Shown here in pieces: positions 21,175 to 25,573 of a stretch of 64,000 nucleotides of DNA (position 1 is the stretch's first letter; each line of letters begins with the position of its first letter). This stretch comes from Blautia sp. An81. Lineage in GTDB: Bacteria > Bacillota > Clostridia > Lachnospirales > Lachnospiraceae. The notes beneath the pieces were generated by a model, which saw nothing but the letters and a program-made list of their open reading frames with translations, did not search any database and had not been told where the DNA came from. Where the stretch lies: NCBI RefSeq assembly GCF_002161285.1, contig NZ_NFHH01000007.1, forward strand, positions 1 through 64,000. Direction: 5' to 3'. Position numbers and translations under genes: made by a program.

Positions 21175-21849
21175 TTATACTATAGGAAAATTCCCATCTG
21201 GGTTTACCTGAAATTCCATCTTTTTCCCGGTCTGGGGATGACGGAAAGACAGCTTACTGGCACACAGCCCCATTTCCTTCCATTCACCTTTGCCATCTTC
21301 TTTTTCGTTATATTTTGTATCTCCTATGATTGGAAAGCCAGCATGAGCTAACTGTACCCTGATCTGATGATGTCTTCCGGTCTTTAAATCAATTTCCAAA
21401 AGACTTTGGCCCTCTTTTTCTTTCAAAACTTTATATTTCAACACAGCTTTTTTACTGTTTTTTGTTTTCTCTTCCACAACCCTGGAAAAATTGCTCCCAG
21501 GGATTTTCTCCATCTGGTTTTCCAGTGTTCCCTCTTTTTCTTCTGGCACTCCCTGGACACAGGCCAGATAAGTTTTTTTCATCTGCCCTGTCTGCACCTG
21601 CCGACTAAGGCCGGCGGCACTTTTCTGATTTTTCCCAAATACCAGGATTCCCTGAACAGGCTGGTCCAGTCTGTGAATGACTGCCAGATAACTGTCTTCT
21701 CCTTTTGTAACCAGATAATTTTTTATCCAGCTTTCCAAATCCATCATTCCCGTTCTTCTGGTCTGAACTGGTACTCCTCCTGGTTTCCTGCATACGATAA
21801 TATCTTTGTCTTCATATAAAATTGTTTCTTCGATACTTAGCCTTCCCAT
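21175..21849 (-). CDS. RluA-family pseudouridine synthase
   Basis: A 224-residue stand-alone catalytic domain that isomerises uridine in rRNA or tRNA. The catalytic Asp62 is in HRLDQPVQG, where most relatives have HRLDxxTSG; the T-S to V-Q change is unusual but found in a clostridial subgroup. Other motifs are KTYLA, ALLKY-like KAVLKYKVL, TGRHHQIRVQLAHAGFPIIGD and the final CASKLSFRHPQTGKKM. There is no S4 domain. RBS AGAGG precedes the ATG. The long structured stretch at 21881-22854 lies directly upstream on the same strand, so this gene could also be read from that promoter. Confidence 0.9.
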   Translation of the reverse strand: MGRLSIEETILYEDKDIIVCRKPGGVPVQTRRTGMMDLESWIKNYLVTKGEDSYLAVIHRLDQPVQGILVFGKNQKSAAGLSRQVQTGQMKKTYLACVQGVPEEKEGTLENQMEKIPGSNFSRVVEEKTKNSKKAVLKYKVLKEKEGQSLLEIDLKTGRHHQIRVQLAHAGFPIIGDTKYNEKEDGKGEWKEMGLCASKLSFRHPQTGKKMEFQVNPDGNFPIV

Positions 21850-21880
21850 AATACCTCTTATACAACTATTTTTTCACAAA

Positions 21881-21927
21881 GGAACAACCGCCATATCTTC
21901 AAATTTTTTCCGATACAACGGTTGTCC
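21881..21927 (-). terminator. possible 3' terminator hairpin of the candidate RNA
   Basis: Minus-strand arms GGACAACCG (21919-21927) and CGGTTGTTCC (21881-21890) followed by TTTGTG. The T tail is poor, so it may instead be a long-range closing helix. Confidence 0.4.
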
Positions 21928-22819
21928 TAATGCTCTTCTTTATTCAATTTTTAAACCTCGTTTTCTTGCTTTCTTTTCTGATACTTTTCTTTAAAGATAT
22001 TTTCTTTATTCAGTATCAATATTCTGATTGATGCTCTTTTAAATTTTCTTTAATATCAGTATCATTTGTATGGTTTTTAGTTACCATGTATCTTTATTTT
22101 TATCCCCTTGATAAATTCTATTCAGAACTTATTGAAAGTTTTATATCAATCTCTATATAGGATAATAAAAAGTTTCCAACAAATAGTTCGGGCTATTTTG
22201 TTTTTCAAACATTTCTTTATATATTTCTTATCAGTGTATCGAATCTTCTTCCCTAAGATTCTCGAATACAACAGGCTTATTTCTACGAATACAACTCATC
22301 ATATCTTCTCATCTCTTCAACTTCTATACACTTTCAATTGATATATAAATACTTTGTTTTTTTAAAATATATTTCTTTACATATATTTTAAAATCTTTCT
22401 ATTATTTTTGTGGTAAATATTCAATATGAGGACATCCTTGATATATTTACCTGAAACTTTTTATCCTATCTCTTTTCTGCTTTTTAAGGATTCTTCTGAT
22501 TATTCTCTATTTCAGGTCTTTCTTTAGGGGAGTAATGTCTTACCACTCTCATATTGATAATTTGATTCATCCGTTCCCATTGGACTAAACCTCCTTATCT
22601 TTATTAAAAAACCTTTCACCAAACTTTTACTTTTTTCCTTGGACGATTAACTTTTAATTATTATCTATAAGTCTTATTTTGTATTCTCCATACACCTAAA
22701 GTTTTATAAACAACAATTACTTTTTAATCTTTATTCCTTGTGGCCATCTTCAAAATTGATTTCTCGTTTCTAATTTTGAAATGGTTATGAAGTTTTGATT
22801 TGGTGTTTTGTTTTTTGTT
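21881..22819 (-). ncRNA. candidate large structured RNA (~0.94 kb)
   Basis: An AT-rich, ORF-free stretch whose minus strand is purine-rich and full of local helices. Perfect or near-perfect arm pairs visible in plus-strand coordinates: 22749-22757/22772-22780 (9 bp), 22412-22420/22443-22451 (9 bp, with inner 22421-22424/22438-22441 and 22430-22432/22435-22437), 22360-22372/22381-22393 (13 bp), 22233-22239/22326-22332 (7 bp), 22241-22247/22255-22261 (7 bp), 22178-22186/22193-22202 (one bulge), 22070-22074/22083-22087, 21979-21985/22012-22018 (7 bp). A 10-nt direct repeat CGAATACAAC occurs at 22263 and 22286. A promoter lies at 22826-22854 and a closing or terminator-like helix at 21881-21890/21919-21927. 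Could be GOLLD/ROOL-like, a new class, or a long leader of the rluA-type gene. Confidence 0.5.
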
Positions 22820-22825
22820 GATATT

Positions 22826-22854
22826 ATAATACAACACAGCCCGAGATTTGTCAA
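22826..22854 (-). promoter_or_regulatory. promoter of the candidate RNA
   Basis: On the minus strand TTGACA (22849-22854) and TATTAT (22826-22831) with 17 bp between. It points into the ORF-free stretch; the nearest coding start on that strand is about 970 nt away. Confidence 0.7.
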
Positions 22855-23022
22855 CCTATTTTTCAAAAAAAGTTTTATTTTTTTATATTATCTTTTCCAT
22901 ATTAATTTATGCTGTAAATTAAATGTACTTCTTCAAATTATATATACAATTATAATATTTTTAAAAATGCTGAACTATCTCAGAAAGAAGTCCCTGGAGA
23001 GTTTCTCTCCATCAACAGAAAA

Positions 23023-23078
23023 CCGCCGCATAAATGCTGCTGAAAGTTCTTCTGCTCCAGCTCTGCTTTATACGGCGG
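23023..23078 (-). terminator. terminator of the hydratase gene
   Basis: Arms at 23023-23034 and 23067-23078 (12 bp, one wobble) rich in G/C at the base, with TTTTCTGTT following on the minus strand; 38 nt after the stop at 23116. Confidence 0.75.
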
Positions 23079-23115
23079 CACTCTTTTGTTTATTGTTTTA
23101 TGGTCAGTCTGAAAA

Positions 23116-25410
23116 TCATTTGCCGGATCTGTAATAGTTGATCAGACATCCCTCCAGAATGATTTCTCTCTCATCTTCTGTCATGTCTCCCAGGCCCAGT
23201 GTAAATTCTTTCATCTGATCACCTACTGTATAGACTTTGATCTCTTTTCTTCCCTCTTCTACCGCTCTGCGGATATCCGGAATAAAGAGATAATCCCCTT
23301 TCTCAAATGGAAGCTCTCCTTCCGGAATCAGGAAAGGAAGCATGCCCCAGTTGATCAGGTTTGAGCGATAACGCTTTGTCGCATATTCGTTGGCAATATT
23401 GGCCCATCCGCCCAATACTTTCTGGCAGGAAGCTGCCTGCTCTCTTGCAGAACCGTCTCCAGGTTTCACTGCAAAGATCGTACTTCCCACTCCTGTATTG
23501 TCCTTATCGGCATCCGGATAAGACTCTGCAATCTTGTCCCACACCGGTTTCAGCTCTGAAAAAGCATCTGCCGGGTTCTCTCCTGCTTCTCTGGCTTTTT
23601 CTGCCACCTGAACTTCTTTGGCAAGCCCTACGTAGTCCGGGTCTTTTCTGGAAAGAGCAAACTCTGCCAGCTTCAGCGGGTTGGAACGGTAAGAAGAAGT
23701 TTCACCAGATGGGATCAGCTCATCGGTAGTTGTTACCGGATCATGAATCTCGGAAACGACTTTCAGTACAAGATTATCTGTAAGTCCAGGCATTTCCGGC
23801 CAGTCTTTAATATTGGGACCAAACTGGATCTCTACTGTAGGATCTGCCTTTCCTTTGCTGTCGAACACTCTGTTTTCATAAATAGTCTTGTCGAAGAAAT
23901 ACTGGGGATGTCTGTATTCTCCTGCGAATTCTGTAGCCGGCGTAAGCCGCCCTTTATTTGCTGCTGTAGCGGCGATTGAACGGGCATCCATAAGGGCCAC
24001 AGAAGAAATCTGGCCGTTCTGTATCTTAGAGCCTTCTCTGTTAGGGAAGTTTCTGGTAGAATGACGGATGCTCAGTGCATTATTGGCAGGTGTGTCTCCT
24101 GCTCCAAAGCATGGACCGCAGAAAGCAGTTTTCACTACTGCTCCTGTCTGAAGCAGATCAGCCAGAACCCCGTTCTTGGCCAGCTCCATATAAATCGGCG
24201 TACTTGCAGGATAAATGCTTAAAGTAAAGGCATCGGAACCTATGCTTGCTCCTCTGAGGATATCTGCTGCATCACAGATATTTTCGAAGCCGCCGCCCGC
24301 ACAGCCGGCGATGATTCCCTGCTCTACATACAATTTTCCGTCTTTCACTTTATCTTTCAATGTATACGGAATCTTGCCGTCCAGGCTGACCTGGGCTTTC
24401 TTCTCCACATCATCCAGAATATCCATGAGATTTGCGTTCAGTTCTTCTATTGTATAGGTATTGCTTGGATGGAAAGGCATGGCGATCATTGGGCGGATCT
24501 TATCCAATTCCACATATACAAGACCATCGTAATAGGTCACTGCCCCAGGATTCAGTTCTTTGTAATCCTGGCCTCTTCCATGGATATTATAGAAGTCTTT
24601 CACAGCGGAATCTGTCTTCCAGATAGAGGAAAGACAGGTAGTTTCTGTAGTCATAACATCAACGCCGATACGGAAATCAGCACTGAGGTTTTCTACGCCT
24701 GGGCCTACAAATTCCATTACTTTATTTTTCACATAGCCGTTTGCGAAAACAGCACCGATAATGGCCAGCGCCACATCCTGAGGTCCTACGCCGGGAACCG
24801 GTTTTCCGGTGAGATAGATTCCCACTACTTCAGGACATTTAATATCATAGGTTCTTCCCAGCAGCTGTTTTACCAGCTCCGGTCCCCCTTCTCCCATGGC
24901 CATAGTACCCAAAGCTCCGTAACGGGTATGGCTGTCAGAGCCCAGGATCATTTTTCCGCCTTCTGCCAGGATTTCTCTTGCAAACTGATGGATAACCGCT
25001 TGATGAGGGGGTACGTAAACTCCGCCATATCGTTTTGCACAGGTAAGTCCAAACATATGGTCATCTTCATTAATAGTACCTCCTACTGCACAGAGAGAGT
25101 TGTGACAGTTGGTCAATACATAGGGAATCGGGAATTTTTCCAGGCCTGAAGCTCTGGCTGTCTGAATAATTCCCACGAAAGTGATATCATGGGAGGTGAG
25201 CTTGTCAAATTTAATCTTCAGTTCGTCCATATTGTCTGAAGTATTATGAGCTTTTAAAATAGAATAGGCAATGGTATTCTTAGCAGCCTCCTTCTTATCC
25301 AGGGCTGTTTTACCATATTTATTCTGAATGATCTCTCCGGCCTGAGGGCTGTCCGGCAGAAGTTCTTTGCCATCGATCAGCCACGCACCACCGTCGTATA
25401 ATTTTATCAT
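23116..25410 (-). CDS. aconitase-family hydratase
   Basis: A 764-residue [4Fe-4S] hydro-lyase of the aconitase superfamily, closer in length and N-terminus to the YbhJ-type hydratases than to AcnA/AcnB. Visible are [12 protein letters not shown] at 157-168, the cluster-binding [10 protein letters not shown] and CGPC (near residue 430), [14 protein letters not shown] and, in the swivelling C-terminal domain, NWGMLPF. It probably interconverts hydroxy di- or tricarboxylic acids; the exact substrate is not evident, and true aconitase is possible. The ATG at 25410 (GGAGG 8 nt upstream) is preferred to the one at 25431. It lies downstream of a CdaR-type regulator gene on the same strand. Confidence 0.85.
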
Positions 25411-25573
25411 GATACTTTCCTCCAATTTCAAAGGTTTTCTACTATTATAGAATCTATTGCTTTAAAAAGCAAGCAGTTTAGCACAATAAATCATTTGTAT
25501 ACAATAGTACAATCCTCAGGGATAAAGAACAGCCCGAAAGCAGAACTCCCCTGTCTCCGAGCTGTTTTCCTGG

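Follow-up and report, generated by a model that had tools for sequence, protein, structure and literature searches.

A candidate class of large structured RNA with a micro-ORF interlocked with a pseudoknot in Blautia and other Lachnospiraceae

A candidate RNA gene of approximately 946 nt is located on the minus strand of Blautia sp. An81 (Table 1), between two genes of the same strand: an aconitase-family gene (23116-25431) upstream, and an RluA-type pseudouridine synthase gene (rluA; 21175-21849) downstream. Positions are those of the window, that is, the whole 64,000-nucleotide stretch of contig NZ_NFHH01000007.1 that was analysed. The candidate RNA contains 26.8% GC, versus 44.7% in the window. 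The purine bias that had been predicted for its transcribed strand is present, in that its purine content of 63.4% falls at the 97th percentile of minus-strand stretches of the same length, but the coding strand of rluA is equally purine-rich (63.4%). A 10-nt direct repeat (22263 and 22286), likewise predicted, is retained in the nearest Blautia relatives and degrades in more distant ones. Outside the RNA, an inverted repeat (TGCCGCCGTATAAA..TTTATGCGGCGG, followed by TTTTC; 23080-23021, minus strand) was seen by eye 3' of the aconitase gene, and is probably the terminator of that gene.

The original prediction placed a TTGACA-17-TATTAT promoter immediately upstream of the RNA and pointing into it, and comparison with relatives agrees. 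TTGACAAAT, followed by an unconserved spacer and a TA-rich -10 element, occurs in every Blautia sequence that reaches the 5' end (18 of 20 loci). Moreover, 84 of 90 loci have a loosely defined promoter pattern no more than 450 nt upstream of the homologous core, and 72 of 90 have one under a strict definition (a 17-nt spacer and a TGn extended -10), while the same patterns occurred in 2.7% and 0%, respectively, of 1,800 controls (20 mononucleotide shuffles per upstream stretch). At the other end, the terminator-like hairpin comprises 16 bp and is paired in 100% of cells in 16 Blautia RNAs, with one-sided changes only and no double changes; in other genera its sequence is rewritten and the palindrome is kept. 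The tail that follows is weak in the window's own clade (TTTGTG). An automatic 3'-end pattern, which is crude, missed the window's own terminator and may include false ones, was found in 45 of 90 loci. The RNA measures 782-1,039 nt among 17 complete Blautia RNAs, and a median of 795 nt over 41 loci delimited by the crude pattern, for which the extremes of 429 and 1,274 nt are provisional; overall, the class spans about 0.6-1.05 kb.

Table 1. Features of the candidate RNA locus (window coordinates)
Feature	Position	Strand	Remarks
RNA gene	21874..22819	-	5' end inferred from promoter -10 box, 3' end from terminator
Sigma-A-type promoter TTGACA-17-TATTAT	22826..22854	-	Relatives: TTGACAAAT, variable spacer, TAnnAT
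5' hairpin (22744..22784), outer helix	22784-22779/22749-22744	-	Doubly changed: two outer pairs, one inner pair
Hairpin around TGTAyGGAGArTACA	22673..22701	-	Lower helix with double changes at two pairs; upper helix invariant
Shine-Dalgarno TAAGGAGGT, within conserved block AGGAGGNNNAGTCCAATGG	22589..22597	-	Comparison
Micro-ORF MGTDESNYQYESGKTLLP, then stop	22524..22580	-	Most relatives: 15-18 or 24-35 codons
H1 5' strand TCAATATGAG	22548..22557	-	nt +24 to +33 of micro-ORF
H2 5' strand GTGGTAA (pseudoknot)	22540..22546	-	Covariation
H3 5' strand, inside H1	22535..22539	-	In 15-codon forms, stop codon overlaps last nucleotide
H4 5' strand ACCTGAAA	22510..22517	-	Covariation
H4 3' strand TTTCAGGT	22449..22456	-	Covariation
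H3 3' strand	22431..22435	-	Covariation
H1 3' strand CTCATATTGA	22421..22430	-	Covariation
H2 3' strand TTACCAC (pseudoknot)	22410..22416	-	Covariation
Second domain	22162..22405	-	Comparison
Second domain, closing helix	22405-22395/22172-22162	-	One-sided changes only
Second domain, 13-bp hairpin	22393-22381/22372-22360	-	Double changes at 4 pairs
Second domain, helix	22359-22355/22211-22207	-	Comparison
Second domain, helix	22349-22342/22223-22216	-	Comparison
Second domain, helix	22332-22324/22241-22233	-	Comparison
Second domain, last helix	22305-22293/22277-22265	-	One-sided changes only
Hairpin 22131-22124/22119-22112	22112..22131	-	Double changes at three pairs
Conserved AATTGAATA, 5' of terminator hairpin	21941..21949	-	Comparison
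Intrinsic-terminator-like hairpin 21927-21912/21897-21882, short T-rich tail	21875..21927	-	Comparison

The stretch had also been described as having no credible ORF, which holds for long conserved reading frames but overlooked a micro-ORF with an ideal Shine-Dalgarno sequence. The plus-strand ORF 22108-22341 is stop-free over at least 67 of 77 residues in only three other Blautia loci (L002, L006 and L010), and the ORF 21806-21994 gives a full-length stop-free alignment in no locus, the longest covering 58 of 62 residues (L006); in the remaining loci, both ORFs are broken up or contain stops. Judged from sequence only, the locus has what is expected of a large structured non-coding RNA gene, namely a promoter, a terminator, a fold with covariation and no long conserved ORF, and the data support an independent RNA gene with its own promoter, a terminator-like hairpin and a covariation-supported fold.

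Only one copy of the RNA stretch occurs in the window's own genome. When 145 related genomes were searched at the DNA level, 46 matched: all 20 from Blautia (the window's own included), and 26 outside the genus, where the matches were weak. Ten of the weak matches were fetched as loci; five (L021 to L024 and L030) fit a profile of the genus alignment, and five (L025 to L029) had no match to R2, a core covariance model built from 69 matches (duplicates left out). A pattern scan returned 33 records that carry the names of Lachnospiraceae genera or of the broader Eubacteriales (e.g. B. hansenii NZ_JAAITA010000007.1 and B. parvula NZ_CP084061.1). Among 397 sampled genomes of the family, the core covariance model R1 matched 74 at E<=0.01, and R2 matched 90 (75 of 334 genera), 82 of them at E<=1e-5; the eight weak R2 matches among the 90 may be due to chance, and 307 of the 397 genomes had no R2 match. 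In the order (392 genomes), R2 yielded 34 matches, 28 of them at E<=1e-5; in the class (391 genomes), R3 yielded three, including the window's own genome. All of the matches listed were Lachnospiraceae, in samples to which other families may have contributed a small or a large share. The weak R2 matches in G041 and G537 were not recovered by R3 in the class sample. R3 found one copy per genome in 19 of 20 Blautia, the exception (G006) being a contig that starts inside the RNA. Homologues with compensatory changes exist, as the prediction required, both within Blautia and in other Lachnospiraceae genera, and the comparison supports a class that was found in this analysis only in Lachnospiraceae.

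Copy number and core composition vary in places. G373 carries two core copies about 2.8 kb apart on the same strand (G373:C24:101786-102016 and 104628-104862; L117 and L136), a second match lies on another contig in G155 and G323, and a weak second match occurs in G186 and G206. The locus L030, from G041, gave a weak R2 match of 31.7 bits (L030:1633-1808, minus strand), which retains AGGAGGTAGAGTCCAATGG and the 3' terminator element and seems to be without helix H1.

Comparison supports a fold centred on an H-type pseudoknot, in which H3 lies within H1, the 5' strand of H2 lies between them, and the 3' strand of H2 lies beyond H1. In a MAFFT alignment of 20 cores (16 from Blautia and four from other genera), the four helices were paired in 93.8% of cells, and 11 of 30 core pairs carried double changes (0 of 500 shuffles). 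Among 90 R2-aligned cores (alignment A4), where the pairing of H1, H3 and H4 is flattered because A2 and A4 were made against these three helices, 90.8% of cells were paired, 24 of 30 pairs were doubly changed (16.4 in shuffles), and 394 cells were doubly changed (138.7 in shuffles; 0 of 500). H1 was paired in 98.3% of these cells, with six doubly changed pairs, and showed no double changes within Blautia alone (16 RNAs). H2, which is absent from the model, was nonetheless paired in 95.8%, with double changes at five of its seven pairs. When the 3' partners were slid by one to three columns, pairing fell to 27-46% in the same 90 cores. All loci of A4 were previously pattern or model matches; near-identical or truncated copies (e.g. 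L004 to L007, L013 to L015, L019, L058, L060, L080, L091 and L112) and some weaker genome matches (e.g. G456, G426 and G221) were excluded. Since the sequences are related, neither the covariation counts nor the reading-frame counts given below are independent. A 9-bp stem (22451-22443/22420-22412) singled out in the original prediction is present in the window and was rejected as a conserved helix; on A2, it was paired in 76.2% of cells, no better than in shuffles (75.9%), and showed no covariation. This stem competes with H2 and H4, and part of its 3' arm pairs in the pseudoknot instead.

RNAalifold, applied to a MAFFT alignment of 16 full-length Blautia RNAs (A3; 16 of the 17 complete ones, with L005 left out), returned 128 pairs, 24 of which were doubly changed. 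From these, nine pairs in small helices were dropped, including a 3-bp helix at the Shine-Dalgarno sequence, and H2 and H4 were added by hand. The resulting structure has 134 pairs in 18 helices, with 97.6% of cells paired. In A3, where, as in A1, the structure was derived from the very sequences tested, 26 pairs and 84 cells were doubly changed, versus 14.5 and 27.7 in shuffles (0 of 500); for further pair types (77), 7 of 500 shuffles had at least as many. Double changes in these RNAs uphold the 13-bp hairpin of the second domain, which had been noticed from the window's letters. In the hairpin at 22701-22673 (minus strand), all aligned Blautia sequences share the loop GGAGA, which resembles a second Shine-Dalgarno-like element.

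The micro-ORF is built into the core. The conserved block AGGAGGNNNAGTCCAATGG lies immediately 5' of H1, and the QYESG codons double as the 5' strands of H1 and H2. H1 starts at nucleotide +24 of the reading frame, and H3 ends at +46. Relatives have either a form M-x-QYESGxA of 15-18 residues or a longer form of 24-35 residues, such as MDNFEFTSQYVSGMANESSQRISLNHRG. A script parsed a Shine-Dalgarno sequence and a start codon in 75 of 90 cores, and at least six of the 15 unparsed cores (L062, L072, L073, L079, L089 and L093) do have the ORF; L024 is without a start codon at the usual place. The spacer between the start codon and H1 is read through in 63 of the 75 parsed cores, with a length of 24 nt (32 cores), 27 nt (26) or 30 nt (2) in 60 of them; the other three are out of frame with QYESG. 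In the remaining 12, the frame ends ahead of H1, in ten cases after 2-4 codons (e.g. MG, MRTT, MGR and MY, each followed by a stop), and the ribosome-binding site and start codon are retained. Among distinct spacers, without requiring read-through, lengths were multiples of three in 52 of 61 with a parsed start. In-frame stops were present in 12 of 63 distinct spacers, as compared to 27 and 26 in the other two frames, and to a mean of 28.4 and a minimum of 17 in 500 shuffles. These frame and stop statistics favour translation of the micro-ORF.

Comparison with known RNAs points to a new class. Rfam 15 (4227 covariance models) gave no match at gathering scores over the 64 kb, and over 21600-23100 at E<=10 it gave one chance-level match (E 9.9), far below the gathering score; membership in any Rfam family was hence rejected. 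Either a member of the GOLLD/ROOL/OLE size class or a new kind of RNA gene had been foreseen, and the latter appears to be the case. The candidate resembles GOLLD, ROOL and OLE in size, in its multi-helix fold with a pseudoknot, and in having a function unknown or only partly known, but differs from them as a chromosomal gene between housekeeping genes, with a micro-ORF inside its core and no Rfam match. In the excerpts of PMC12286853, GOLLD and ROOL are described as phage- or prophage-encoded, frequently close to tRNA islands; the window contains no tRNA, and the neighbours are aconitase and rluA. Viral contigs L110 (146-237) and L111 (6422-6513) share one 92-nt stretch with the exact core pattern. 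These two non-extending matches were the only ones in a single exact-pattern scan of viral contigs, which divergent phage copies would escape; a phage origin was rejected, as both are the same stretch of about 92 nt and score 16.8 bits to the model. The raiA motif (ModT) is another structured RNA of Bacillota, reported in the excerpted part of PMC11706538 to act in trans, but it is approximately 215 nt long, versus approximately 946 nt for the candidate. Its model had no match in the window, and none in the window's own genome or in 200 genomes of the family; the 14 control genomes were silent too, so raiA may nevertheless be present in these genomes.

Other RNAs combine structure with a short reading frame. 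RNAIII-type dual-function RNAs are structured regulatory RNAs with an embedded short ORF; in the candidate, by contrast, the ORF codons themselves form pseudoknot strands, the sequence relation being compared through Rfam alone. Like tmRNA, the candidate would combine a pseudoknot with a short reading frame at the core of the RNA, but it has a canonical Shine-Dalgarno sequence and start codon, and both ARAGORN and Rfam were negative for tmRNA in the window. A replacement of tmRNA or 6S RNA was rejected, as both are encoded elsewhere in the genome (on C1 and C23, respectively). The odc1, uORFC-8-2 and uORFC-6-1 motifs are structured RNAs with a conserved short uORF, which, as excerpted from PMC8632094, are found ahead of a particular gene and are treated as controlling in cis; the candidate differs from this description in its varying neighbours and its own terminator-like end. 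Among the literature matches listed, the RNA is not named in titles or abstract openings, and a short piece of it may be among the supplementary candidates of PMC8040213. The excerpt of PMC5171806 describes clops3132 of C. phytofermentans as an unassigned, very strongly initiated transcript that has the strongest start site on cellulose and corn stover, and proposes it to be non-coding; homology to the candidate RNA is possible. No relation to GOLLD, ROOL, OLE, raiA, tmRNA or 6S was found in these sequence comparisons, and what appears to be new is a large structured non-coding RNA set apart by a micro-ORF interlocked with a pseudoknot.

The neighbourhood bears on whether the RNA is instead the long leader of the rluA-type gene, the alternative given in the original prediction. 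According to this view, translation of the micro-ORF would control read-through of the hairpin at 21927-21882, as in an attenuator. In Blautia, rluA is the next gene in 19 of 20 loci (in the remaining one, the contig ends first), and read-through into rluA is possible since the window's own hairpin is followed by a weak tail. The order aconitase, RNA, rluA is a recurrent one. In other genera, among loci with a neighbouring ORF of at least 120 aa (some of them near relatives of each other), 9 of 42 have an aconitase homologue upstream and 9 of 38 have rluA downstream. In the other 29, however, the next ORF is not rluA, and in eight of the 38 it is antisense; three of these are backed by Pfam or homology (L034, L042 and L045), and some of the others may be spurious. 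Ten other neighbours were scanned, and nine had Pfam matches: Na/Ca exchanger, TPR protein, NYN/OST-HTH protein, GCS2, periplasmic binding protein, HhH-GPD/NUDIX protein, histidine phosphatase, zinc-ribbon protein and Cys/Met-metabolism enzyme. In some genera, a Na/Ca exchanger or NYN-domain gene is antisense downstream. Thus, rluA does not lie downstream on the same strand in all members, as a cis-regulatory leader would have it. Because a conserved terminator-like hairpin precedes rluA and the next gene differs in many genera, a leader function is disfavoured; it was rejected as a general role on this variation of neighbours, and as such is unlikely. The ORF moreover lies about 600 nt away from the hairpin, and we consider attenuation of rluA quite improbable.

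We tentatively propose, at a little short of an even chance, that the RNA is a trans-acting structured RNA with a ribosome-gated pseudoknot and a micro-ORF built into its core. Comparative evidence speaks for the structure; the RNA would be transcribed from its own promoter, the micro-ORF would be translated, and the pseudoknot would be gated in an RNA that acts in trans. Given the general footprint of a ribosome, one on the start codon would lie directly 5' of H1, and one close to the stop codon would cover H1 to H3. The proposal is made because of where H1 begins and H3 ends relative to this footprint. A ribosome on the start codon would not yet reach H1, but H1, H2 and H3 would all be unwound as it moved on towards the stop codon, and the core would be folded or remodelled according to the cell's efficiency of initiation and elongation, its state being reported to the second domain or to a partner bound to the RNA. 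The micropeptide is probably of secondary importance, since in some relatives the frame ends after 2-4 codons although core and ribosome-binding site are kept. Those relatives also suit a scaffold or docking RNA like OLE or GOLLD, whose fold would bind proteins, itself or the ribosome, and whose Shine-Dalgarno sequence and start codon would hold ribosomal subunits rather than serve a peptide or unwinding. The large multi-helix fold and the 12 early-stopping parsed cores are consistent with this, and ribosomes are reported to be pulled down together with GOLLD (PMC12286853, in the part excerpted), but the selection on the reading frame hints that in most lineages elongation is important, and we regard a scaffold as rather unlikely, if worth serious consideration.

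If the micropeptide were the main product, the locus would be a messenger or dual-function RNA, with structure serving stability or translational control. The start codon, the frame and a QY(E/V/G)(S/C)G motif are conserved, and many loci encode a longer version (e.g. ..QYVSGMANxSSxRISLNHR). However, it is in paired strands that the conserved residues are encoded, so that pairing of the RNA could by itself explain their conservation, the N-terminal part is variable, and several lineages without the peptide keep the core; this makes a messenger unlikely, more so than a scaffold. That the stretch is a decayed protein gene, or that its structure arose by chance in AT-rich DNA, would accord with the very low GC content, but compensatory changes exceed shuffles in three alignments, the promoter recurs, and conservation of a long ORF is absent. 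A decayed gene was rejected on the lack of such an ORF and on covariation, which is strongly against it, and the chance of either explanation is close to nil.

To our knowledge, few bacterial RNA classes of such size and complexity are known, and most of them are without known function. The ribosome-gated pseudoknot proposed above has a more specific form, in which the micro-ORF and the pseudoknot occupy the same nucleotides and the ribosome is the ligand; the RNA would then sense initiation and elongation via its own unfolding, and signal in trans through the second domain. We hold this form to be conceivable and distinctly doubtful. With the candidate RNA, a possible direct interaction between a large RNA and translating ribosomes can be put to the test, and in gut bacteria that can be cultured. 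If the proposal is true, this would be an RNA class whose ligand is, in effect, the ribosome.
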